This document shows positions 42,275-55,029 of a stretch of DNA of 64,000 bases, piece after piece. A model generated the notes under the pieces. The model searched no databases, was not told where the DNA came from, and saw only the letters and a list, made by a program, of their open reading frames with translations. Each line of letters starts with the position of its first letter. The first letter of the stretch is position 1. The DNA is taken from the NCBI GenBank assembly GCA_958296385.1, contig OY282494.1, forward strand, positions 157,416 through 221,415, written 5' to 3'. This DNA comes from an uncultured Dehalococcoidia bacterium (GTDB lineage: Bacteria; Chloroflexota; Dehalococcoidia; Lucifugimonadales; UBA3495). A program made the translations under genes and the position numbers.

Positions 42275-42350
42275 GGGGATATAGCTCAACTGGGAGAGCG
42301 CGGCGTTCGCAATGCCGAGGTTGCGGGTTCGAGTCCCGCTATCTCCACCA
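42275..42350 (+). tRNA. tRNA-Ala (anticodon CGC)
   Basis: A full cloverleaf of 76 nt. Acceptor GGGGATA pairs with TATCTCC (one G-U). The D stem is GCTC/GAGC, the anticodon stem CGGCG/TGCCG with loop TTCGCAA (anticodon CGC), and the T stem GCGGG/CCCGC. CCA is encoded. Confidence 0.95.
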
Positions 42351-42362
42351 TTTTGTTATTGC

Positions 42363-42439
42363 GCCCCTGTAGCTCAGTTGGATAGAGCGGCGGCGTCCTA
42401 AGTCGCGCGTCGGGGGTTCGAGTCCCTCCAGGGGTACCA
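42363..42439 (+). tRNA. tRNA-Arg (anticodon CCT)
   Basis: A 77-nt cloverleaf. Acceptor GCCCCTG pairs with CAGGGGT, anticodon stem GCGGC/GTCGC with loop GTCCTAA (anticodon CCT), T stem GGGGG/CCCTC with one G-U. CCA is encoded. It lies 12 bp after tRNA-Ala, so the two are probably transcribed together. Confidence 0.95.
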
Positions 42440-43602: not shown

Positions 43603-45846
43603 ATGGCTGCTATTGATGCGTACACGCCTGATGCTTGCCGGCTGGCGGCGGCGCTGCCGGTGATTTATGCCGGCCATCCGGCGGGGGATGGGCTGGATGC
43701 GGCGCGTCGTATTGCGGCGACGGCGGGGGAGTTGCTGGCGGCGGTGCCGGGTGATGGGGTTGAGCCGTCGGTGGTTAATGCGGCGGGGTTGTTTTTGCTG
43801 GCCGGGCCTGCGGATGGGGTCGGGCGGGCTGATTTGTCGAGGGCCATTGCGGGGGCCTGGCTGTTGGGGGTGGGGGCGCCGGGTGGGTTTGTGACTGCGG
43901 TGTCATCCGCTATTGCTGATGCCTGGCGGGAGTTGGAGGGTGTCGGGGTGGCTGCGGATACGGCGCTGGGGCAGGCGGCTTTGCTGGATTTGGCTTGTTG
44001 GGAACGGCACGCTGCCGTTTTGGGGTGTGCGCCGGCTGTGGGACGGGAGCGGGAGCAGTATCTGTCGCGATACCGGCGGCGAGTTTTGATACCGGCGCTG
44101 CTGCTGGAGGGGCGGCTGGCGTCAGCGGCGGCGGCTTGGGAGATGTATCGCGCGCGGATGGGGCGGCTGGCCGGGTATTTGGACGGTCTGGATGGCGGAT
44201 TGGTGTCGGCGGATTGGCGGCGGCTGGCGGAGGTGGAGGTTGTGGAGCGGGGGGTGGAGCGGCTGCTGGCGGGGGAGGACCCGGCGCTGGTTAAATCGGA
44301 GATGCCGGTTCCGGGGTTGCCTTATGCGGAGTACCGGGGGCAGCAGCGGGGGGTTATTGCGGGCAGCCATGACCGGATTCTGGAGCTGACGCACGACCGT
44401 ATTGAGGCATCGCGGAACGTGGCGGCGGAGAAGTATTTGGAGAGCGATACTATCCACAAGCCGGCGGTGGAGGAGAATTTGTTTGTCAGCGCGCGGCGGC
44501 GGGCGCGGCGGCTGGGGTTATCTGCGGAAACTGCGGAGGACATTGCGCGGCTGCTGCTGTCTAACGCGCGGGCGGTGCAGGAACGGACGCTGAACGACAT
44601 TGCGCAGCGGCTCAGCCGTTTGCACGGGCAGATTTTGGATGCGGACTCGCCGGAAACCCGGACGGAGGAGGCGGATATGGCGATTCCGTCGCTGGTGGTG
44701 CGGACGGGGGACCAGCCGCTGGCGCGGGAGAACGAGCTCATCAAGGAACTGCGGGTCACCGGGCTGAACGAGGCGTATCCGGAGCAGCGGCGGCAGTTTG
44801 TGAACTGGTTTGACGCGCCGCATCCGTATATGGAGACGGGGCAGCTGGTGGGGAGCCGGGATGCCGACCTTTTTTTGCAGGCGCTGACGGACGGGCAGCG
44901 GTGCAAGGTGATGGCGGCGATGTCAACGGACGGGCCGATGCACCTGGGCAACGGGGCGCTGGTCAATCTGCTGCGCTATTTTCAAGGGCTGGGGGCGGAA
45001 ATCGTTATCGGTTTTCGCGACGAATCGGACGACCGGAACCGGGCCCGCAAGGTGATGCTGGAGCGTCTGCTGACGATGGCGGCGGCCGGCCTTGACTTGC
45101 ATAAGACCGACGCTTACTTGCAGCCGGACCGTTCGGCAATCGTGGAGACGGCGTTTGCGCTGGGGCAGGCGATACCGCTGAGCGTGCTCAATTCGGCGCT
45201 GGGGCTGCGGCTGAACAGCAGCGTTACCAATACGTTCCGGCCGCTGCTGCGGCTGGCGGATATTCTGCATCAGCAGCAGGCCGAATACGGGGGGCCGGGG
45301 CGGACTCTGGTTATCGACGGGATTGGGGGGGACGTGTACGTGCGGATGGCGCGCAATGTGGCGGAGGGGTTTGGATTCGTTAAGCCGTCGGCGCTCTATT
45401 TGCGGATGGTGCGGAGTTTGACGACCTACGAGGACCCGGGCACGGGCAGCGCGGTGGAGGTGATGACTAACGCCGTGCCGCAAGGGCGGGTTGCTTACGA
45501 CGATGGGCCGGAGGAAATTCGCCGGCGCATCGGGCGGGCGTACACCGGGGGGCGGCGGACGCTGGCGGAGCAGAGGGCGCAGGGGGGGAATCCGGATCCG
45601 AGGGTCTGCGCGGTGGCCAGTTTGCACGCTTTTTACGCTACGCCGGACGCCGAGCGGTATGCTGACTTGCAGGGGCGCTGCCGCTCCGGGGGGCTGCTGT
45701 GCGGGGATTGCAAGGCGATGGCTACCGACGGCCTGCTAGAATATCTGGCGGGGTATCGCCAGGCGCGGGGCAATCTGCCGGACGACGTGCTGCGGCGGGC
45801 CCGGGCTCTGGCCGGATGCAGTGGGTCGGAGGAGCAATCGGAATGA
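43603..45846 (+). CDS. AroQ chorismate-mutase domain fused to an archaeal-type TrpRS-like domain
   Basis: A 747-aa protein. Residues 1-240 are an unrecognised alpha-helical region. Residues ~249-330 fit an AroQ chorismate mutase: R249, R266, K277, E290 and Q326 fall at exactly the spacing of R11, R28, K39, E52 and Q88 in E. coli PheA; R51 is Val and D48 is Lys. Residues ~400-720 follow archaeal-type tryptophanyl-tRNA synthetase: TGQLVGSRDADLFLQAL, RLADILHQQQAEYGG, YTGGRRTLAEQRAQGG, GRCRSGGLLCGDCK. HIGH reads HLGN (447-450) and KMSSS reads VMTNA (620-624). ATG 43603 follows repeat DNA. Canonical trpS is 55 bp downstream. A Trp-sensing mutase is my inference. Confidence 0.75.
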   Translation: MAAIDAYTPDACRLAAALPVIYAGHPAGDGLDAARRIAATAGELLAAVPGDGVEPSVVNAAGLFLLAGPADGVGRADLSRAIAGAWLLGVGAPGGFVTAVSSAIADAWRELEGVGVAADTALGQAALLDLACWERHAAVLGCAPAVGREREQYLSRYRRRVLIPALLLEGRLASAAAAWEMYRARMGRLAGYLDGLDGGLVSADWRRLAEVEVVERGVERLLAGEDPALVKSEMPVPGLPYAEYRGQQRGVIAGSHDRILELTHDRIEASRNVAAEKYLESDTIHKPAVEENLFVSARRRARRLGLSAETAEDIARLLLSNARAVQERTLNDIAQRLSRLHGQILDADSPETRTEEADMAIPSLVVRTGDQPLARENELIKELRVTGLNEAYPEQRRQFVNWFDAPHPYMETGQLVGSRDADLFLQALTDGQRCKVMAAMSTDGPMHLGNGALVNLLRYFQGLGAEIVIGFRDESDDRNRARKVMLERLLTMAAAGLDLHKTDAYLQPDRSAIVETAFALGQAIPLSVLNSALGLRLNSSVTNTFRPLLRLADILHQQQAEYGGPGRTLVIDGIGGDVYVRMARNVAEGFGFVKPSALYLRMVRSLTTYEDPGTGSAVEVMTNAVPQGRVAYDDGPEEIRRRIGRAYTGGRRTLAEQRAQGGNPDPRVCAVASLHAFYATPDAERYADLQGRCRSGGLLCGDCKAMATDGLLEYLAGYRQARGNLPDDVLRRARALAGCSGSEEQSE

Positions 45847-45901
45847 CGGGACGGAAATCTGAAATCAAGACGGAATCGGAATTAAGCAGGAGAATTACAT
45901 A

Positions 45902-46918
45902 ATGCCCGACCAGCAACGTATCCTTACCGGGATGCGCCCAACCGGACAGCTTCACGTGGGCCATTATCTTGGCGCATTGGAGAACTGGATTCAGTTGCAG
46001 CACGAGTACGAGTGCTTTTTTCTCATCGCCGACTACCAGGCGATGGGCGACCATCTGGACGACATCGGATTGATTCGGCGTTCGGTGCTGGAGGTGGCTA
46101 CGGACTGGCTGGCGGTGGGGCTGGACCCGGAGCGGGCGTCGTTTGTGATACAGAGCTACGTGCCGGAACACGCCGAGTTGACGATGTACTTTAGTATGCT
46201 GACGCCGCTGAATCAGCATCAGAGGAATCCGACACTGCGGGCCGAAATTGGGCAGCTGGAGGCGGAAAACCAGTCGGTAACGCTGGGGTTTTTCAACTAT
46301 CCGCTCAGCCAAGTTGCGGATATTCTGCTGCCAAAGGCGCATCTGGTGCCGGTGGGGGAGGATCAAGTGGCACATATTGAGTACACCAGGGACATTGCAC
46401 GCCGGTTTAACCGAATCTACGGCGACGTGTTTCCGATGCCAAGGGCCAGGGTGGGGCGGGTGCCGCGGCTGGTGGGTACGGACGGGCGGGCCAAAATGAG
46501 CAAAAGTCTCAACAATGCGGTGTATCTGGCCGACGATGCGGACACGGTGAAGCAGCGGGTGCGGCGGATGGTTACGGACAGCACCGGGGAGAATCCGCGC
46601 TTGCGGCCTACCGATCCGGGGGTGGTGGAGTACAATCCGGCGTTTCTGTATCACGATGCGTTTAACGACAATGCAGGCGAGGTTGCCGAATTGAAAGAAC
46701 GGTACACCGCCGGGCGGGTTAGCGACGTGGAGGTGAAAGACCGTCTGGCGGAGGCGCTGAACCGCTTTCTGGAGCCAATCCGGGAAAGGCGGGCGTGGTA
46801 CGAACAGCATCCGGACTACGTGCGGGAGGCGCTGATTGCCGGCACGGAACGGGAACGGGTCATCGCGCGTCAGACTATTGAGGACGTGCGGCAGGCGATG
46901 CAGGTGGTGTACGCCTGA
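45902..46918 (+). CDS. trpS: tryptophanyl-tRNA synthetase
   Basis: A 338-aa class I synthetase that charges tRNA-Trp. The HIGH motif is in RPTGQLHVGHYLGALENW and the KMSKS motif is intact in GRAKMSKSLNN. The tRNA and amino-acid pocket motifs (PVGEDQVAHIEYTRDIARRFN) are normal for the bacterial enzyme. AGCAGGAG precedes ATG 45902. It follows the AroQ/TrpRS-like gene by 55 bp on the same strand, so the organism carries a working bacterial enzyme beside a degenerate archaeal-type homologue. Confidence 0.96.
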   Translation: MPDQQRILTGMRPTGQLHVGHYLGALENWIQLQHEYECFFLIADYQAMGDHLDDIGLIRRSVLEVATDWLAVGLDPERASFVIQSYVPEHAELTMYFSMLTPLNQHQRNPTLRAEIGQLEAENQSVTLGFFNYPLSQVADILLPKAHLVPVGEDQVAHIEYTRDIARRFNRIYGDVFPMPRARVGRVPRLVGTDGRAKMSKSLNNAVYLADDADTVKQRVRRMVTDSTGENPRLRPTDPGVVEYNPAFLYHDAFNDNAGEVAELKERYTAGRVSDVEVKDRLAEALNRFLEPIRERRAWYEQHPDYVREALIAGTERERVIARQTIEDVRQAMQVVYA

Positions 46919-46998
46919 AATCGCGGGCCGGGATTAGGCCGGCAAAGCAGCACTGACGCGGGGAGATAGGACGGGGGAACTGATATGGAGGTACTCAC

Positions 46999-48585
46999 TT
47001 GAGCATGGAGGGCAGCCGGCCGGGGCAGTTACCGGCGCCGCTGGGCAAAGTTTTGATGGTGCAGGGTACGGCGTCGCACGTGGGAAAAAGCGTGCTGGTG
47101 TCGGCGCTGTGCCGGATCTTGCGGCAGGATGGTTACCGGGTGGCGCCGTTCAAAGCGCAGAATATGTCCAACAATTCGTATGTCACTCCGGACGGGGGAG
47201 AGATTGGGCGGGCGCAGGCGGTGCAGGCGGAGGCGGCCGGGGTGGATGCGCGGGTCGAGATGAATCCGGTACTGCTGAAACCGGAGGCGGACAGCCATGC
47301 GCAGGTGGTGCTGATGGGGCGTCCGCTGACCTCGGCACGGGCACGGGATTACTTTGACCTGAAGGCTACGCTGTGGGAATCGGTGACGGCGTCGCTGGAT
47401 ACGCTGCGGGGGCAGTATGACGTGGTGGTGATAGAGGGGGCGGGCAGTCCGGCGGAAATTAATCTCAAGGCTACCGAAATCGTCAATATGCGGGTGGCGC
47501 GGTACGCTAATGCGCCGGTGCTGCTGTGCGGGGACATTGACCGGGGGGGCGTGTTTGCGGCGCTGGTGGGGACGTTGCAGCTGCTGGACGCGGCGGAGCG
47601 GGATACGGTGAAAGGGCTGCTGATAAACAAGTTTCGGGGCGATGCGGGGCTGCTGACCGACGGGCTGGACTGGCTGGAGCAGTACACGGGCAAGCCGGTG
47701 GTGGGGGTGGTGCATCATTATCGGGATATTCATATTCCGGAGGAGGATTCGGTAGCGCTGGATTTGGCGCCGCCGGCGTCGTCGGAGGCGGCCGTGCTGG
47801 ACGTGGCGGTGGTGCAGGTGCCGCACATCTCCAACTTTGACGACTTTGACCCGCTGGCCAGGGAGCCGGGGGTAGCCTTGCGCTACGTGCAGCACGGGGA
47901 CAGGCTGGGACGGCCGGATTTGGTGATTCTGCCGGGGAGCAAAACGACGATACCCGACCTGCTGTGGATGGAACGGCAGGGTCTGACGCGGGCGATTGCG
48001 GACGCGCACGGCGGGGGAGCGGCGGTGATGGGGATCTGCGGGGGGTATCAGATGCTGGGCAACGCTATTTACGATCCGGAGCACGTGGAGTCGTCGGTGG
48101 GGATGGCGCAGGGGTTGGGGATGCTGCCGCTGACGACGACCTTTGTCGGCTCCAAAGAGACGCATCGGGTGCGGGCGACGGTGCGAGGGGAGGCGGCCGG
48201 CGCCGGCAGTCTGCTGGCGGGCGCCGGCGGGCGGGATGTTAGCGGGTACGAAATTCATATGGGACGTACCGTTGCGGAGGGGGTTATTCCGGCTTTTGCG
48301 GTTGTGGACCGGGCGGATGCTCCGGTGACGGCGGAGTCGGCGTGGGACGGGGCAATCAATGCCGGCGGGGATGTTCTGGGGACTTACATTCACGGGCTGC
48401 TGCACAATGCTGAGGTGCGGCAGGCGCTGCTGGGGGAACTGGCGCGGCGCAAGGGGGTTGCGCTGCCGGAGGGGGGCGACGTGGCGCGGGACCGGGAGTA
48501 TGACCGGCTGGCGGACTGGGTGCGGGGCAGCCTGCGGATGGGGCTGGTGTACGAGATGGCCGGGCTGACGCCGGCGGCCGTTTAG
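46999..48585 (+). CDS. cobQ: cobyric acid synthase
   Basis: A 528-aa ATP-dependent amidase that adds four amide groups to the corrin ring. The N-terminal P-loop-like domain starts KVLMVQGTASHVGKSVLVSALCR and contains APFKAQNMSNNSYVT. The C-terminal class I glutaminase-like domain has MGICGGYQMLG (nucleophile cysteine) and ends GTYIHGLLHN. TTG 46999 is preferred since GGAGGT lies six bases before it; ATG 47005 is a near alternative. It begins the cobQ-cobU-pduX run. Confidence 0.95.
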   Translation: MSMEGSRPGQLPAPLGKVLMVQGTASHVGKSVLVSALCRILRQDGYRVAPFKAQNMSNNSYVTPDGGEIGRAQAVQAEAAGVDARVEMNPVLLKPEADSHAQVVLMGRPLTSARARDYFDLKATLWESVTASLDTLRGQYDVVVIEGAGSPAEINLKATEIVNMRVARYANAPVLLCGDIDRGGVFAALVGTLQLLDAAERDTVKGLLINKFRGDAGLLTDGLDWLEQYTGKPVVGVVHHYRDIHIPEEDSVALDLAPPASSEAAVLDVAVVQVPHISNFDDFDPLAREPGVALRYVQHGDRLGRPDLVILPGSKTTIPDLLWMERQGLTRAIADAHGGGAAVMGICGGYQMLGNAIYDPEHVESSVGMAQGLGMLPLTTTFVGSKETHRVRATVRGEAAGAGSLLAGAGGRDVSGYEIHMGRTVAEGVIPAFAVVDRADAPVTAESAWDGAINAGGDVLGTYIHGLLHNAEVRQALLGELARRKGVALPEGGDVARDREYDRLADWVRGSLRMGLVYEMAGLTPAAV

Positions 48586-48622
48586 CCGTGGGGCGTGCTG
48601 GGCGATGAGTATTGTCTGAACG

Positions 48623-49225
48623 ATGAGCACCGTTGCGCTGATATTGGGGGGTATCCGTTCGGGGAAAAGCGCCTACGCCGAGGGGGTTGTGGCGGGTATG
48701 GCGTTGGGGCGTCCGGTGATTTACATTGCTACCGGGGTTGCGGCGGATGGTGAGATGGCCGAGCGCATCCGACGGCATCGGGAGCGGCGTCCGGGGGAAT
48801 GGCAGACTTTGGAGGCGCCGCTGAATCCGACGGGGGCGCTGCGGGGTTGGCAATCGGGGACGGCCGGGGGATGCTCGGAAACGGGTTCTCCGGTAACGGG
48901 TTTGCCGGTGGTGCTGCTGGACTCGCTGGATGGGTGGGTGGGCAATTTGATGTTTGAGTACGCCAATGCGCCGGCGGTGGAGCTGGAGGCGCGGATGGTG
49001 GGGGCAGTGCGGCAGTTGGTGGCTGACGTCAGGGGGTTTAATATGGATGCGGTGGTGGTGAGCAGCGAGGTGGGGCAATCGCTGGTGTCGGCTAACGCGG
49101 TGGGGCGACGGTTTCAGGATTTGCTGGGGACGGTGAATCAGGCGCTGGCGGGGGCGGCGGACGAGGTTACGCTGGTGGTGGCCGGCATACCGATGGCGGT
49201 GAAACGCGCCGCTACGCCGCGCTAG
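48623..49225 (+). CDS. cobU: adenosylcobinamide kinase/guanylyltransferase
   Basis: A 200-aa bifunctional enzyme that phosphorylates cobinamide and then adds GMP during nucleotide-loop assembly. The P-loop is LILGGIRSGKSAYAE, followed by VIYIATGVAADGEMAERIRRHRERRP, which includes the guanylylated histidine, and LLDSLDGWVGN. It lies 37 bp after cobQ. Length is normal. Confidence 0.93.
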   Translation: MSTVALILGGIRSGKSAYAEGVVAGMALGRPVIYIATGVAADGEMAERIRRHRERRPGEWQTLEAPLNPTGALRGWQSGTAGGCSETGSPVTGLPVVLLDSLDGWVGNLMFEYANAPAVELEARMVGAVRQLVADVRGFNMDAVVVSSEVGQSLVSANAVGRRFQDLLGTVNQALAGAADEVTLVVAGIPMAVKRAATPR

Positions 49226-49234
49226 TTTGGCCCA

Positions 49235-50158
49235 ATGTCCGGCGACGTCATCGGCACGGCAACCGCGCTGGCGCCAGGCACCTGCGGGGAGCTGGTGCAG
49301 GGGATGACCGGGGGCGTGGACTTTCTGGTGACCTGTCCAATTAACCAGTTTGCGCGGGCTACGGTGACTTTGCGCTCGGGACGGACGGACGGCGAGGGGG
49401 GGATGGTGACGGGGGTTGACCATCTGCCAAAGACGCGGCGGGCGGTGGAGCTGGCGTTGTCTGAGATTGCCAGGATGGGGGGCGTCGGCAATCCAGCGGC
49501 CGGGGTGATGGTGAGCAGTCCGCTGCCGGTGGGCAAGGGGATGGGGAGCAGCAGCGCGGATATTGCGGCCGCGGTGGGGGCGGTTGGCATTGCGGCCGGG
49601 GTCACGCTAGCGCCGGAGAGGATTGCCCGTATTGCGCTGTCGGTTGAGCCTACGGACGGGGTGATGCTGCCCGGTGTGGTGCTGATGGACCATCGCCGGG
49701 GCCGCATCTTAGATTATCTGGGCACGCCGCCGCCGCTGGAGGTAATCGTCATCGACCGGGGCGGGCAGGTGGATACGCTGGAGTTCAACCAGATTGACCG
49801 GACGCGGCAATGGCAAGAAGTAGAGAGTAGGACCGAGGAGGCCCTGGATCTGGTGAGAGCAGGTATTCGTCACGACGACGCTGAGTTGGTGGGCCGGGGC
49901 GCAACCATTAGCGCGCGGGCTGGACATCCGCCTGGCGCTGGCCCGTGGGTGGAGCGGGCGTTGACCTGCGTTGCCGGAATGCGCGCCGCCGTTGGGGTTA
50001 ACGTTGCGCATAGCGGTACGGTGGTGGGTATCTTGCTGGACGCGCGGTTGCGGCAGGGCAAGCCGGCGCTGCGGCAGGTGAAGGCGGCGTTCAGCGATGC
50101 GGAAAGCGTGCGGCACTTTCGGGTTATTGGGGGGGGAGTGCGGCGGGAGCCGTTCTGA
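49235..50158 (+). CDS. pduX: L-threonine kinase PduX-like (GHMP family)
   Basis: A 307-aa GHMP kinase. It starts APGTCGELVQGM and carries the ATP loop SSPLPVGKGMGSSSADI, then EPTDGVMLPGVVLMDHRRG, the pattern of PduX. PduX makes L-threonine phosphate, the precursor of the aminopropanol linker of cobalamin, which fits its place 9 bp after cobU. The last GHMP motif near the C-terminus (GVNVAHSGTVVGILLD) is intact. Other loop-assembly genes (cobS, cobD) are not in the window. Confidence 0.9.
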   Translation: MSGDVIGTATALAPGTCGELVQGMTGGVDFLVTCPINQFARATVTLRSGRTDGEGGMVTGVDHLPKTRRAVELALSEIARMGGVGNPAAGVMVSSPLPVGKGMGSSSADIAAAVGAVGIAAGVTLAPERIARIALSVEPTDGVMLPGVVLMDHRRGRILDYLGTPPPLEVIVIDRGGQVDTLEFNQIDRTRQWQEVESRTEEALDLVRAGIRHDDAELVGRGATISARAGHPPGAGPWVERALTCVAGMRAAVGVNVAHSGTVVGILLDARLRQGKPALRQVKAAFSDAESVRHFRVIGGGVRREPF

Positions 50159-50301
50159 TATGAACTGCGCGCGGCGCCGGCGCGATGGCAGGATTTGGAC
50201 GTATTGGAACGAATGATGCTGTTGGTCCATGGGATAGGGAGGCAGGGGGCTACGGTCATATGATTTGAAAGCGTGATTTTAGTACAGCCAGATTATGCGT
50301 A

Positions 50302-50330
50302 TTGACAACCGGAACTTGGGCTGGTAGAGT
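50302..50330 (+). promoter_or_regulatory. strong sigma-70-type promoter
   Basis: A perfect TTGACA is followed by a 17-bp spacer and TAGAGT preceded by TGG (extended -10). The expected start site (~50337) falls at the first base of the nested hairpin. Confidence 0.75.
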
Positions 50331-50337
50331 CGCAGAT

Positions 50338-50446
50338 GCTACAGTTCAGGCTCCGCGCTCTCATGCGGCCAGATTGCAAGTCTCCATCGAAGGTATGGCA
50401 ACGTGCCTCCTTGCGGGACTTGCAATCGGAGCTGGTGAACTGTAGC
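50338..50446 (+). ncRNA. nested long hairpin RNA or structured 5' leader
   Basis: Three stacked stems: GCTACAGTTCA with TGAACTGTAGC (outer, 11 bp), GCTCCG with CGGAGC, and GATTGCAAGTC with GACTTGCAATC (inner, 11 bp). A 16-nt bulge lies on the 5' side and a ~34-nt apical loop can form GGCA-acg-TGCC. It begins at the predicted start site of a strong promoter and ends 37 bp before the TM2-protein ATG. It is either a stand-alone small RNA or a regulatory leader. It matches no family I recognise. Confidence 0.55.
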
Positions 50447-50483
50447 AGGTAGCCAAATCCTGAGACCGCAAGGGGGTTCCACA

Positions 50484-50945
50484 ATGACCGGGCAAGTGCT
50501 CGATTACTCCGTCCAAAACCGAGAAGGCGTCATTTCGGGTGACGACGGCCAGCGTTATCGGTTCGGGGCTGATGAATGGCCGTCGGGAAGGTTCGCATCG
50601 CAAGGCATACGCGGACAACGGGTTGATTTTGAGGTCGACGACGATGGCCGGGCAGTCAACCTCTACCTGCTGGATTCGCCATCATTGCCCAAGCCAGTAG
50701 AAGCCACGCAGACAGCGACGGCGCCTACTGGAACGAAAGTAAGGATGACAGCGGCGCTTTTTGCCCTGCTCCTTGGTTTGTTTGGGGTTGACCAGTTTTA
50801 CATCGGCAAAACTGGAGCCGGGATTGGCAGGATTGTGCTGACCGTGACCATGCTCGGAGCTCCGGCGTCCGCCGCTTGGTCATTGATGAGCGCGATCAAA
50901 TTCTTTTCGATGACCGATGCCGACTTTGACGCCACGTATAATTAG
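50484..50945 (+). CDS. TM2-domain protein with N-terminal cold-shock-like domain
   Basis: A 153-aa protein. Residues 1-65 (GQVLDYSVQNREGVISGDDGQ...VDFEVDDDGRAVNLYL) look like a cold-shock/OB-fold nucleic-acid-binding module, though the aromatic RNP motifs are weak. Residues ~88-140 form two membrane helices joined by FGVDQFYIGKTGAGIGRI, the TM2 signature. AAGGGGG precedes ATG 50484 and a structured leader lies upstream. The role of TM2 proteins is not defined. It is followed 11 bp later by a lipoprotein gene. Confidence 0.75.
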   Translation: MTGQVLDYSVQNREGVISGDDGQRYRFGADEWPSGRFASQGIRGQRVDFEVDDDGRAVNLYLLDSPSLPKPVEATQTATAPTGTKVRMTAALFALLLGLFGVDQFYIGKTGAGIGRIVLTVTMLGAPASAAWSLMSAIKFFSMTDADFDATYN

Positions 50946-50956
50946 CGGGGGTAGCC

Positions 50957-51202
50957 ATGAAAATCCTCGCTATTGCGATAACCACCCTATTGCTGATTGC
51001 CTGCGCTCCGTCCAGTGTCGGCTTGTCCAATGCTACGGACAAGGAATTGGACAAGGCCTGCAATGCGCTGTCGAAAGTCGGTTACGACTACCACCAGTTG
51101 AACGTGCTGGCGATCGGTGGCAGGACTTTGGAGGTAGCGGCAAGTATCCACACCGACCACACCGGGCCAGAAAAGACGCGTAAATACTGCGAAGGACGGT
51201 AG
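50957..51202 (+). CDS. small lipoprotein
   Basis: An 81-aa secreted protein. The signal peptide MKILAIAITTLLLIAC ends in the lipobox LIAC, giving a lipidated cysteine at residue 16. The mature part (about 65 residues) has two further cysteines (KACNAL and KYCEGR) that could form a disulphide. No family is recognised. It is co-transcribed with the TM2 gene and ends before a hairpin terminator. Confidence 0.7.
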   Translation: MKILAIAITTLLLIACAPSSVGLSNATDKELDKACNALSKVGYDYHQLNVLAIGGRTLEVAASIHTDHTGPEKTRKYCEGR

Positions 51203-51206
51203 CAAA

Positions 51207-51240
51207 GACAAGGGCCGGGCTAATGCCACCGGCCTTTGTC
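51207..51240 (+). terminator. terminator after the lipoprotein gene
   Basis: GACAAGGGCCGG pairs with CCGGCCTTTGTC (one G-U) around a 10-nt loop. It is followed by GTTATG, so the T tract is weak. Confidence 0.6.
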
Positions 51241-51311
51241 GTTATGGTGCAGTCGTTGCAGGGTATGGCGCTACGAGAACAGGCAACCTTGCGGCGCTGA
51301 AAAGCTGTGCG

Positions 51312-52172
51312 CTACCGTCCTTCGCGGCGGCGGCCGTGGAATAGGTATTGCTGGGAGTAGCCGGCGTATGGGCCGAAGTGGGCTTGGGCCCATTGCACCA
51401 TTGCTTTGTCGGGGGGCTTTTTTTGCATGGGGAAGTACCATTCGGCGAGGGCGCGGCGTACCCAGACATCTACCGGGAACGCGTCGAGTTTTTCCAGGGC
51501 GAATACGGCGATGCAGTCGGCGATTTTGGCGCCGATGCCGCGACATTCCATTAGACGCGATTTGGCGTCGGGGTAGGGTTGGCGGATTAGTTCGTCCAGG
51601 TTTAGCTGGCCGTCGGTGACTTGTTGGGCTACGCCGGCTACGTAGGGGGCGCGGAATCCTAATCCTAGCTCGCGGAGGAATCCAGCGCCGGCGGCGGCTA
51701 GCTGCTCAGGGGTGGGGAAGGTGTGGCGGGTTTCGCCGGCCAGTTGCAGGGGGTGGCCGAGGCTTTGGGCCATGGCTTCCATGTTCTGGTGGATGCGGGG
51801 GATGTTGGAGGTGGCGGAGCAGATGAAAGCGACGGTACATTCCCAGGGTTCCTGGCGCAGGATGCGCAGGCCGGGGTAGCGGGCCACCATGTCGGCAACG
51901 CGGCGGTCGCGGCAAATGTCGTTGTAAATGGCGGCGATGTCGTCGTCAAGGCGGAAGTAGGAATGGAGCAGGCGATCGATGGCGTCGTCGGATGGGAGTC
52001 CGGTGGTGCTGACGGCCTGGTATTCTACTGCGGCGCCGTCTTGGCGGAGGTGGATCAAGTGACTGCCTAGAACGCCGGAGTAGAGGCCATCGTCGAGCTT
52101 GCGCCAGCGGTGGGCCTGGCCGCTTTCGAGGCTTTCGGCCAGGTTGAAGGGTTGGCTAATTGCGAGTTTCAC
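51312..52172 (-). CDS. ogg: 8-oxoguanine DNA glycosylase/AP lyase (Ogg1-type)
   Basis: A 286-aa HhH-GPD glycosylase that removes 8-oxoguanine. The N-terminal domain resembles OGG1 (FNLAESLESGQAHRW). The helix-hairpin-helix LMECRGIGAKIADCIAVFALEKLDAFPVDVWV holds the catalytic lysine of GIGAK and the aspartate of PVDVW. The N-terminal extension GQAHRW...YSGVLG is family-like. Its start overlaps the dinG stop by 17 bp, so it is co-transcribed with the helicase. Confidence 0.9.
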   Translation of the reverse strand: MKLAISQPFNLAESLESGQAHRWRKLDDGLYSGVLGSHLIHLRQDGAAVEYQAVSTTGLPSDDAIDRLLHSYFRLDDDIAAIYNDICRDRRVADMVARYPGLRILRQEPWECTVAFICSATSNIPRIHQNMEAMAQSLGHPLQLAGETRHTFPTPEQLAAAGAGFLRELGLGFRAPYVAGVAQQVTDGQLNLDELIRQPYPDAKSRLMECRGIGAKIADCIAVFALEKLDAFPVDVWVRRALAEWYFPMQKKPPDKAMVQWAQAHFGPYAGYSQQYLFHGRRREGR

Positions 52173-55029
52173 GGGCGAGTTGGAGCCAGCGGGCGGCTTG
52201 CTGGCCTACGGATGCCATGGTGGAGCGCTGGAAGGTGCAGGTGGGCAGGGAGTTGAGGAAACGGTCGCCGTAGTTGGCGGTTTGGATGCGGCGGTCGAGG
52301 ATTACGACTACGCCCCGGTCGGTTTTGTTGCGGATGAGGCGGCCAAAGCCTTGCCGGAAGCGGAGTACGGCGGTGGGCACCTGGAAGTCGTTGAAAGGGT
52401 TGTTGCAGAGGTTGCTGCGGGCTTTGACGATGGGGTCGCTGGGGACGGGGAAGGGGAGGCGGCAGAGGAGCAGGCCGCGCAGGATGCCGGATTCCAAGTC
52501 AACGCCCTCCCAAAAGCTGGCGGTGCCGAGGAGGACGGAGCGGGGTTCGGAGCGCAGGCGTTCGGTGAGCTGACGGGGGGTGCCGTCGATGCCTTGGGCC
52601 AGCAGGGTGATGCCCTCGGCGCGGAGGGCGGCGCGGACCTGGTAGGATGCCTCGCGCAGGGCGTTGTGGGAGGTGAACAGGGCCAGCAGGTGGCCATCCA
52701 GGGCTTTGGCCATGTTCAGGATGACCTGGGCGGTGCCCCGGTTGTGGTCGGCGGCACGGCGGGGGTCGGGCTGGTCCTCGGGGACTAGGATAAGGGTGTT
52801 GCGTTCGTAGTTGAAGGGGCTGTCAACCAGCAACTCGTCGCTCTGCTCCGGGAAACCGACGCGCTGGCGCAGGAAATCAAAGCTGGAGTCTGCGGTGAGG
52901 GTGGCGCTGGTCAGTACGATGGCGTCTTTGTTGGCAAAGAGGCGGTCGCTGAGGATGGGGCCGACGGACAGGGGGGTGGAGTGGAGGGTGACGTTGCGGC
53001 GCACGACGTCAAGCCACTGGATTTGCTGGTCGTCAAAGCGTCCGAAAACGGAGGCGAGGCTGTCGTTGAGCTGGGATATGGCCTCGCGGCTGGCGAACAG
53101 TTCGGTGGGGGCGGATTCGTCATCGGCGCTGAAAACGTCGGAGGCCAGACGTTCCAGATTTTGCAGGGCGATGACGCACTGGTTCATAAAGACGGAGGCG
53201 TTCTCCCATTCCAGGGCGACGGAACTCCAGCCGGCGGACTGGCGCACCTTGTCATCCAGCGAAAGGGGTTCCTGGCGGTCGTTGTCGGACTGGCGGGTTG
53301 CGCCGGAGTGGAGGCCGGCGATGGCCTTCCAGAGGCTTTCCCAACTCTGGATGGCGTTGTTGCAGGCGACAAAGGCGCCGGATACGGCGTCGTTGGCCCG
53401 GGAGGCGGTGGGCTGGTCGCTGATGCGGTGGGTGGCGGCGGTCAGGCGGTTCAGTACGCGGTACACGGCGTCCAGCTCGCGGGGCAAGGCGTCGTGGGCG
53501 ACCTCAAAACCGAGCTGGCGGCTGGCTTCCTCCTCCAGGTGGTGGGCTTCGTCGATGACAAGGTGCTGGTAGTCCTGGAGGACGGTGCCGCCGACGGCGA
53601 GGTCGGCGAGGAGGAGGGCGTGGTTGACGACGAGGATGTGGGCGGATTCGGCCTGATGGCGGGCCTGGCGGAGGAAACAGGGGGCGCTGCTGCGAAAGGC
53701 GGGGCAGACCTGGGCGGTGTCGGCGGAAATCCGGGACCAGGCGCGGAAATCGCCGGAATGGAAATTCAGATTGGTACGGTCGCCGCTGGCGGTGTCGTCC
53801 AGCCAGACGGCGGTTTTGCCAATCATGCGGGCTTCATCCTCGCTGATGTTGTCGGCCAGGGCCAGCGCGTTCCAGCGGTGCAGGCAGACGTAGTTGGAGC
53901 GGCCTTTGAGCTGGGCGGCCTTGACTACGCCGGGGTGCAGGATGCCGGCGGTTTCGAGGATGCCAATTACGGCGGGGATGTCTTTCTCCATCAACTGTTC
54001 CTGGAGGTTGATGGTGTTGGTGGAGATGACGACGCGCTCGCCGTGGGTGGCGGCGTAAATGACGGCGGGCAGCAGGTAGGCCAGGCTCTTGCCGATGCCG
54101 GTGCCGCCCTCAACGATGAGCTTGCGGCCCTGATAGACGGCGCGGGTAACGGCTTTCAGCATCTCGGCTTGCTGGGGGCGATCCTCAAAGCCGGGGAACT
54201 CGCTGGCGAACAGGCCGTGGGGGGCCAATAGTTCCTCAACCTGCTGCTCGGTTAGTTCGCGGCGGATGGCTTTGTCGAGGGGGGCGCCGGGGGTGTCGGA
54301 GAGGCGGTGGGACAGGGCTTCCAGGTTCAGGCCGTTGAGTCCGATTGAGCTGGGGCCGCCGGTTGAACCGGGGGCGGCGGATTGGGCGAGGGCGGAGTTG
54401 GCGCCGGCGGAGTGGGGGACGAGTCCCTCCAGCAAGTCGGCAACCGGGGCGTTGGCGGTGCGGGCGGCGCGGGCGATGAGGGCGATTTTGGGGGCCGGGT
54501 GCTGGGCGCCAATCTGCAACAAGCGGTGAAACACGCCGGCGGTGACTTCGGCGTCGGCGATGGCCCGGTGAGCGTTGGGGTGGGGCAAGTCCAGCTGCTG
54601 GGCCAGGGCGGAGAGGTTGTATTCGGGAGCAGTGGGGAGGAAAACGGAGGCCAAATCCCAGGTGTTGTAGCTGGGGTTGGGGAAATCCAGCCGGTGGGAC
54701 TTGAGAAAGTCGAGGTCAAACTTGACGTTGTGGCCGATGATGGGGAGGTTGCCGACGAACTCGGCCAACTGGCCGGCGATTTGGCCGAAGGAGGGGGCGC
54801 GTTCAATTTGGGCCGGGGTGATGGAGGTTAGCTGCTGGATGAACTGGGGAATCTTGCGGCCCGGATTGACGAAAGTGCTGAACGTATCCAGCAGCTCGCC
54901 GGCGCGGAACTTTACGGCGCCGACCTCAATGATGGTGTCGCCGTGGGGGTTCAGGCCGGTGGTCTCCAAGTCGATGGCGACGAACACCTGCTGAAAGGGG
55001 TCAATGTGCTGGAGGATGGATTGCGTCAT
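52156..55029 (-). CDS. dinG: DnaQ-type exonuclease/DinG-family helicase
   Basis: A 957-aa two-domain protein. The N-terminal DEDD exonuclease has FVAIDLETTG (Exo I), IIGHNVKFDLDFL (Exo II) and HRAIADAEVT (Exo III). The C-terminal XPD/DinG helicase has Walker A VEGGTGIGKSLAYLLP, cysteines of a likely Fe-S cluster (YVCLHR, VCPAFRSSAPCF) and the DEAH box VIDEAHHLEEE. The fusion is the form common in Gram-positive and Chloroflexota genomes. ATG 55029 is chosen; the open frame before it is not family-like. It acts in DNA repair or recombination. Confidence 0.93.
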   Translation of the reverse strand: MTQSILQHIDPFQQVFVAIDLETTGLNPHGDTIIEVGAVKFRAGELLDTFSTFVNPGRKIPQFIQQLTSITPAQIERAPSFGQIAGQLAEFVGNLPIIGHNVKFDLDFLKSHRLDFPNPSYNTWDLASVFLPTAPEYNLSALAQQLDLPHPNAHRAIADAEVTAGVFHRLLQIGAQHPAPKIALIARAARTANAPVADLLEGLVPHSAGANSALAQSAAPGSTGGPSSIGLNGLNLEALSHRLSDTPGAPLDKAIRRELTEQQVEELLAPHGLFASEFPGFEDRPQQAEMLKAVTRAVYQGRKLIVEGGTGIGKSLAYLLPAVIYAATHGERVVISTNTINLQEQLMEKDIPAVIGILETAGILHPGVVKAAQLKGRSNYVCLHRWNALALADNISEDEARMIGKTAVWLDDTASGDRTNLNFHSGDFRAWSRISADTAQVCPAFRSSAPCFLRQARHQAESAHILVVNHALLLADLAVGGTVLQDYQHLVIDEAHHLEEEASRQLGFEVAHDALPRELDAVYRVLNRLTAATHRISDQPTASRANDAVSGAFVACNNAIQSWESLWKAIAGLHSGATRQSDNDRQEPLSLDDKVRQSAGWSSVALEWENASVFMNQCVIALQNLERLASDVFSADDESAPTELFASREAISQLNDSLASVFGRFDDQQIQWLDVVRRNVTLHSTPLSVGPILSDRLFANKDAIVLTSATLTADSSFDFLRQRVGFPEQSDELLVDSPFNYERNTLILVPEDQPDPRRAADHNRGTAQVILNMAKALDGHLLALFTSHNALREASYQVRAALRAEGITLLAQGIDGTPRQLTERLRSEPRSVLLGTASFWEGVDLESGILRGLLLCRLPFPVPSDPIVKARSNLCNNPFNDFQVPTAVLRFRQGFGRLIRNKTDRGVVVILDRRIQTANYGDRFLNSLPTCTFQRSTMASVGQQAARWLQLARETRN

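Follow-up and report, generated by a model that had tools for sequence, protein, structure and literature searches.

The window, by which we mean the whole 64,000-nucleotide stretch of DNA from an uncultured Dehalococcoidia bacterium, contains a promoter-like sequence, a nested hairpin and two open reading frames (ORFs) on the same strand. Read as RNA, the order is P1, a junction, P2, a loop consisting of a strand X, about 6 nt and a stretch complementary to the Shine-Dalgarno (SD) sequence (anti-SD), the returning strands of P2 and P1, a strand X′, the SD and the ORF, laid out as follows:

50302..50330, plus strand: sigma-70-like promoter, with -35 TTGACA at 50302-50307 and -10 TAGAGT at 50325-50330
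50338..50348, plus strand: 5′ strand of P1, GCTACAGTTCA, forming a perfect 11-bp helix with the P1 3′ strand
50350..50354, plus strand: P1 extension GCTCC, paired with 50428-50432 in the MFE fold
50356..50367, plus strand: small junction hairpin CGC/GCG between the 5′ strands of P1 and P2, from the MFE fold
50372..50382, plus strand: 5′ strand of P2, GATTGCAAGTC, in a perfect 11-bp helix backed by the own-versus-swapped comparison below
50391..50399, plus strand: loop strand X, pairing with X′ at 50452-50461 or within P3
50391-50397 with 50402-50408, plus strand: alternative hairpin P3 with a GCAA loop, from local folding
50406..50416, plus strand: anti-SD in the P2 loop, CCTCCTTGCGG, with 11 of 11 positions pairing with 50466-50476, one of them as G-U
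50417..50427, plus strand: 3′ strand of P2, GACTTGCAATC, abutting the 3′ end of the anti-SD
50436..50446, plus strand: 3′ strand of P1, TGAACTGTAGC, backed by co-variation
50452..50461, plus strand: strand X′, 3′ of P1 and complementary to loop strand X
50466..50476, plus strand: SD-containing strand of the TM2 gene, CCGCAAGGGGG, complement of the anti-SD
50484..50945, plus strand: 153-aa ORF whose residues 87-125 form a TM2 domain (PF05154, E 4.2e-8)
50957..51202, plus strand: ORF of 81 aa with a lipoprotein-like N-terminus, MKILAIAITTLLLIAC, the lipobox recognised by eye
51207..51241, plus strand: strong hairpin 3′ of the lipoprotein ORF (z -5.06), lacking a T run

A Pfam search with the 81-aa ORF at 50957..51202 returned no match, and the hairpin at 51207-51241 could possibly act as a terminator, an mRNA 3′ end or the end of the unit. 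The OGG gene at the window locus was found in 14 of 14 genus genomes; within flanks of about 1.5 kb per genome, the TM2/lipoprotein pair adjoins OGG only in G000, that place in G001, G010 and G012 being occupied by a GHMP kinase together with a second OGG-like gene. Next to the OGG ortholog, relatives (L180-L185) have a tandem second or third OGG-like DNA glycosylase, a place taken in the window genome by the TM2/lipoprotein unit. Elsewhere in the window, tRNA genes for Ala(CGC) and Arg(CCT) lie side by side at 42275-42439.

A preliminary description of this DNA had drawn attention to a consensus promoter and a nested hairpin with two perfect 11-bp helices at 50302-50446, with transcription predicted to start at the foot of the hairpin. 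The promoter is borne out by the sequence, in which a 17-bp spacer separates TTGACA from TAGAGT and a TG precedes TAGAGT, giving an extended -10, and it scores best among the three promoter-like sites within positions 45000-55000. Shuffling that interval yields 2.1 ± 1.6 promoter-like sites, so that the promoter by itself is not beyond chance. Promoter and hairpin jointly are, because the same geometry recurs across relatives: a promoter with its -10 ending 3-12 nt upstream of P1 was found at 57 of 73 family loci (L119, for which upstream sequence is missing, was left out) compared with 0.7% of 297 random positions, a promoter call needing a score of 8 or more out of 12, lowered when the -10 lacks A2 or T6. 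The distance from -10 to P1 is exactly 6 or 7 nt in 51 of these 57 loci. It is 7 nt in the window, which fits a transcription start at 50338, the first base of P1 and the predicted foot of the hairpin. Combined with a G as the first base of P1 in 65 of 69 full-length copies, this geometry suggests that the transcript most likely starts with the P1 strand itself.

Both 11-bp helices are likewise present as described, and the fold of 50330-50460 reaches -65.6 kcal/mol compared with -41.4 ± 3.8 kcal/mol for shuffled sequence (z -6.43, 0 of 200 as good). The extent given for the element held for the promoter, P1 and P2 and failed at its 3′ end: the unit reaches approximately position 50480, just upstream of the ATG at 50484, and half of it lies beyond the earlier coordinates, as X′ and the SD are located 3′ of P1 and have their complements in the P2 loop. 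The anti-SD:SD duplex in the window amounts to -20.3 kcal/mol. As the 16S rRNA of the same genome ends in GGATCACCTCCTTTT, the captured stretch includes sequence needed by the ribosome. The loop partner changes along with the SD, reading CCUCC or CCCCC. GGGGG often replaces GGAGG as the SD, at 50472-50476 and in many family members, requiring G-U pairing with the 16S tail.

The element belongs to a dispersed family. A BLAST search of the element uncovered a second copy in its own genome (one contig, 3.3 Mb) at C1:956509-956588 on the minus strand, which keeps the plan with different stems (TTGACA, GCGACAGTTCC...GGAACTGTCGC, loop CCTCCTTGCGG, CCGCAAGGAGG, then a lipoprotein gene), and gave matches in 13 of 99 relatives with the own genome counted in; in total the own genome holds three copies. 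The exact loop motif CCTCCTTGCGG was rejected as a copy finder, its 8 places in the own genome comparing with 8 in the control and being mostly chance. R1, a covariance model covering the 3′ half, was built from 13 sequences with pairing limited to anti-SD:SD. In the genus it matched 12 of 14 genomes at E≤0.5, and in the order 48 of 250 at E≤0.01, the latter at 139 places with 1-9 per genome. A second model (R2), built on an alignment (A3) that includes two extra rows, matched 22 of 393 genomes in the class at E≤0.001 and 7 of 400 in the phylum at E≤1e-4. Named genomes in which members turned up bear the labels SAR202 cluster bacterium, uncultured Dehalococcoidia bacterium, Chloroflexi bacterium and Chloroflexota bacterium, and several of these bacteria are, judging by isolate names, presumably sponge symbionts. 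A pattern scan of named genomes returned 14 stretches, nine of which were judged family members and five (L042, L043, L046, L049, L050) chance. One further locus, L178 (G004:C340), has a family-like 3′ half without recognisable P1 or promoter and is perhaps a truncated copy.

Detailed analyses used the best 80 of the 139 order places, two extra of 82 matches having been dropped (L152 1617-1713 minus; L147 1992-2061 minus, the same element on the opposite strand). Removal of six near-duplicates (L103, L137, L142, L149, L159, L169) left 74 loci, and a further five were set aside because P1 matched poorly, leaving the 69 full-length copies. Among the 82 model-aligned matches (81 distinct rows) 96.9% of cells show anti-SD and SD paired, and double-sided changes number 83 compared with 18 ± 3.4 in shuffled and 5-19 in slid controls on the same alignment; these counts include the two extra rows, and A3, being model-fitted, leans towards anti-SD:SD. 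In the 69 full-length copies aligned with MAFFT, P1 and anti-SD:SD together show 252 double-sided changes compared with 57 ± 9.5 shuffled and 33-56 slid, and 0 of 500 shuffles reached any of five measures. P1 pair counts are inflated because P1 5′ strands were picked by best complementarity, an effect covered by the swapped control, in which each strand was paired with its own partner or with the partners of other loci (74 loci). Own duplexes exceeded swapped ones for P1 (-21.3 vs -12.9 kcal/mol), P2 (-14.1 vs -7.7), X:X′ (-15.5 vs -10.4) and anti-SD:SD (-19.2 vs -15.4). The own partner beat 95% of swaps at 65 of 74 loci for P1, 49 for P2 and 41 for X:X′, so that locus-specific pairing lends support to all three; X:X′ is weak in the window itself, where 32% of swaps are equally good. 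For anti-SD:SD the figure is just 24 of 74 because swaps are already good, both sides being conserved.

Evidence for the alternative hairpin is of another kind. P3 would draw on bases that X:X′ and anti-SD:SD also use. Its local fold is -9.0 compared with -4.7 shuffled, and at 67 of 74 loci it pairs the two leading C of the anti-SD. For one P3 pair, 11 of 14 C-bearing loci have a G partner, in a local fold that admits standard pairs only. Local folding and this one pair weakly suggest P3, for which the swap comparison was itself weak (5 of 74). Pairing of X′ with the SD tail, considered as another hairpin, was rejected (own -7.4 vs swapped -7.7; 1 of 74).

An ORF of at least 60 aa starts 0-12 nt after the element at 58 of 74 loci compared with 16% of random positions, the other 16 having no ORF of 60 aa within 12 nt. 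A hydrophobic segment occurs in the first 50 residues of 45 of the 58 proteins and a lipobox in 21, compared with 26 (14%) and 8 of 186 control ORFs, which are greedy longest ORFs of the same loci and not curated genes; the window TM2 ORF scores as a miss in this N-terminal membrane test, its TM2 domain being internal. Pfam searches of the 58 downstream proteins revealed no common domain (38 families, the commonest in three members), single proteins carrying TPR, RCC1, collagen, CAP or trypsin domains. The genes controlled are predicted to encode mostly exported lipoproteins and small membrane proteins. TPR, RCC1 and collagen-like repeats behind a few leaders are eukaryote-like domains in possible symbionts. 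Some loci lacking an ORF look decayed, for example L109 with five codons. A subfamily with very similar leaders (L133, L137, L145, L149, L159) has short downstream frames in all five, which are possibly decayed targets or short peptides.

We posit that the element very probably forms the 5′ leader of an mRNA and belongs to a dispersed family of cis-regulatory RNAs working by SD capture. The structure is upheld by compensatory changes, and the SD lies in conserved pairing with a start codon at a fixed distance (58 of 74 loci). Relatives lacking the pairing had been named beforehand as the outcome that would speak against the structure, and both co-variation and the swap comparisons came out in its favour; of the two roles offered in the preliminary description, that of a regulatory leader for the TM2/lipoprotein pair is the one strengthened, as changes in the loop track those in an SD beyond the hairpin. 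With transcription starting at the first base of P1, the RNA 5′ end would be sealed in a stem, and P1 and P2 would hold the loop bearing X and the 11-nt anti-SD. Once X′ and then the SD had left the polymerase, the loop could form X:X′ and anti-SD:SD, pairings borne out by co-variation, and the second of them would bury the SD and presumably block initiation. P3 would take up the same X and anti-SD bases and leave the SD free, so that the leader could act as a translation switch with P3 as ON and X:X′ with anti-SD:SD as OFF, X:X′ opening P3. These roles for P3 (ON) and X:X′ (helper) are put forward tentatively, at a little under even chances. Binding of the SD by the loop anti-SD averages -19.2, compared with -11.8 for the 16S tail, so the default is probably OFF, and as calculation favours the OFF state, expression would be expected to require a trigger. 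With nested pairs only, the ensemble leaves 35% of the SD core unpaired on average and 19% in the window; some masking of the SD thus arises without the pseudoknot, which suggests that loop pairing is not the sole means of hiding it.

The geometry leaves room for a variant compatible with SD capture. X:X′ comprises approximately 11 bp, the linker from X to anti-SD approximately 6 nt and that from X′ to SD approximately 0 nt (median), so that forming X:X′ and anti-SD:SD together would be tight though conceivable, and the two may instead be alternatives. In a kinetic switch of this kind X:X′ would be the ON state, exclusive of anti-SD:SD: early X′ would hold the loop off the SD, and later, or without ligand, the loop would swap to the SD. 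The near contiguity of X′ and SD, which with the 6-nt linker makes two full helices tight, and the greater stability of anti-SD:SD than of X:X′ agree with this variant, but the position of X′ directly 5′ of the SD in most copies fits cooperative capture as well, and we consider the kinetic variant plausible without favouring it.

Capture of the SD in cis also has to be set against the other role first suggested, that of an independent, decoy-like small RNA. Such an RNA, acting in trans, for instance as a decoy for the ribosome or the anti-SD, and adjacent to TM2 by accident, would suit a very stable 5′-sealed hairpin with its own promoter and a loop CCTCC resembling the 16S tail. The co-varying unit nevertheless runs through the SD of the same locus, outside the hairpin, and 58 of 74 loci have an ORF at a set distance downstream. 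Moreover, no intrinsic-terminator-like site follows the hairpin between 50446 and the ORF, none of the six such sites in 45000-55000 being placed after it (Rho-type ends are not visible in sequence). The small-RNA role is therefore very improbable.

The SD-capture leader also appears to be reused as a module. Several leaders are 80-92% alike although the genes behind them have no mutual BLASTP match, the pairs L168/L169, L129/L162 and L120/L140 being 84-92% alike before unrelated genes, which suggests that the unit moves or is copied. The clearest pair, L168/L169, comes from genomes assigned to different families and is 91.6% alike over 203 nt. The likeness extends from the -35 TTGACG to shortly after the SD, and the genes thereafter differ; misbinning of L169 is possible as its contig is only 5.3 kb. 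L101/L103, L133/L137 and L145/L149 are alike past the element too, as expected of plain homologous loci. Dispersed copies and such leader pairs could also be produced by a DNA mobile element, a MITE- or REP-like inverted repeat with the stems as transposase or recombination sites. Promoter and SD nevertheless belong to the conserved unit while falling outside the inverted repeat, which the unit shared by L168/L169 exceeds on both sides, the stems vary freely while pairing is kept, a simple MITE would have no use for co-variation between loop and SD, and the element had no match in phage and plasmid records or, by exact pattern, in viral contigs, making a mobile repeat hard to credit. In hok-type type I toxin mRNAs a 5′ fold hides the SD upstream of a membrane protein, but a leader of that toxin-antitoxin kind, blocking a membrane toxin, is the least credible reading despite the stable 5′ fold, SD capture and membrane proteins downstream, because hok-type mRNAs encode a small toxin and the element precedes larger products, mostly lipoproteins and membrane proteins of 60-650 aa and not small toxic peptides.

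Among known leaders, the Escherichia coli S4 (alpha operon) leader controls translation by a pseudoknot fold around the SD; it serves a single operon with a protein ligand, whereas the Chloroflexota element is a dispersed family before unrelated genes. No Rfam 15 match was obtained at the element in the window at gathering or permissive thresholds, nor in 16 of the 80 member loci at the permissive threshold. The apparently unpublished status of the family rests on Rfam and a limited literature search, and a large 2017 survey, which reportedly described 224 candidate RNAs, lies outside this comparison. In the literature searched, of partial coverage and including PMC2864571, PMC8632094 and PMC6429828, no such element was found. 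One likeness is to the pnuC (SRC-10-1) motif, a leader RNA able to form a pseudoknot with the adjacent gene's ribosome-binding site (PMC8632094); the element differs in its two full 11-bp stems, 5′-sealed end, 11-nt anti-SD and X:X′, and in targets that are exported proteins instead of NAD metabolism. SAM-V and related riboswitches control translation through an H-type pseudoknot (PMC6061858). They are ligand-binding aptamers before metabolic genes, whereas the element had no Rfam match in the 16 member loci. Chloroflexi-1 RNA (RF01698), a candidate RNA from a Chloroflexota genome (PMC2864571), is likewise distinct insofar as neither the window element nor these 16 loci matched Rfam. We thus regard the element as a probable new RNA family of a known mechanism class, a leader pseudoknot over the ribosome-binding site, and do not claim riboswitch membership.

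It is conceivable, at somewhat less than an even chance, that the family represents a new RNA-switch class spreading across Chloroflexota as a ready-made 'promoter plus switch' unit and placing a single shared signal in charge of unrelated genes for envelope lipoproteins and membrane proteins, some of which have eukaryote-like repeats. If the reading as an SD-capturing leader is correct, the family would be a widespread and so far unlisted one among leader RNAs, combining strong co-variation and a defined mechanism of SD capture with coherent targets, namely exported lipoproteins and membrane proteins, in a phylum with few matches in the regulatory-RNA literature searched. Reuse of promoter and leader before unrelated genes would provide a concrete case of regulatory units copied between genes, and the signal to which they respond would be open to test with simple reporters.
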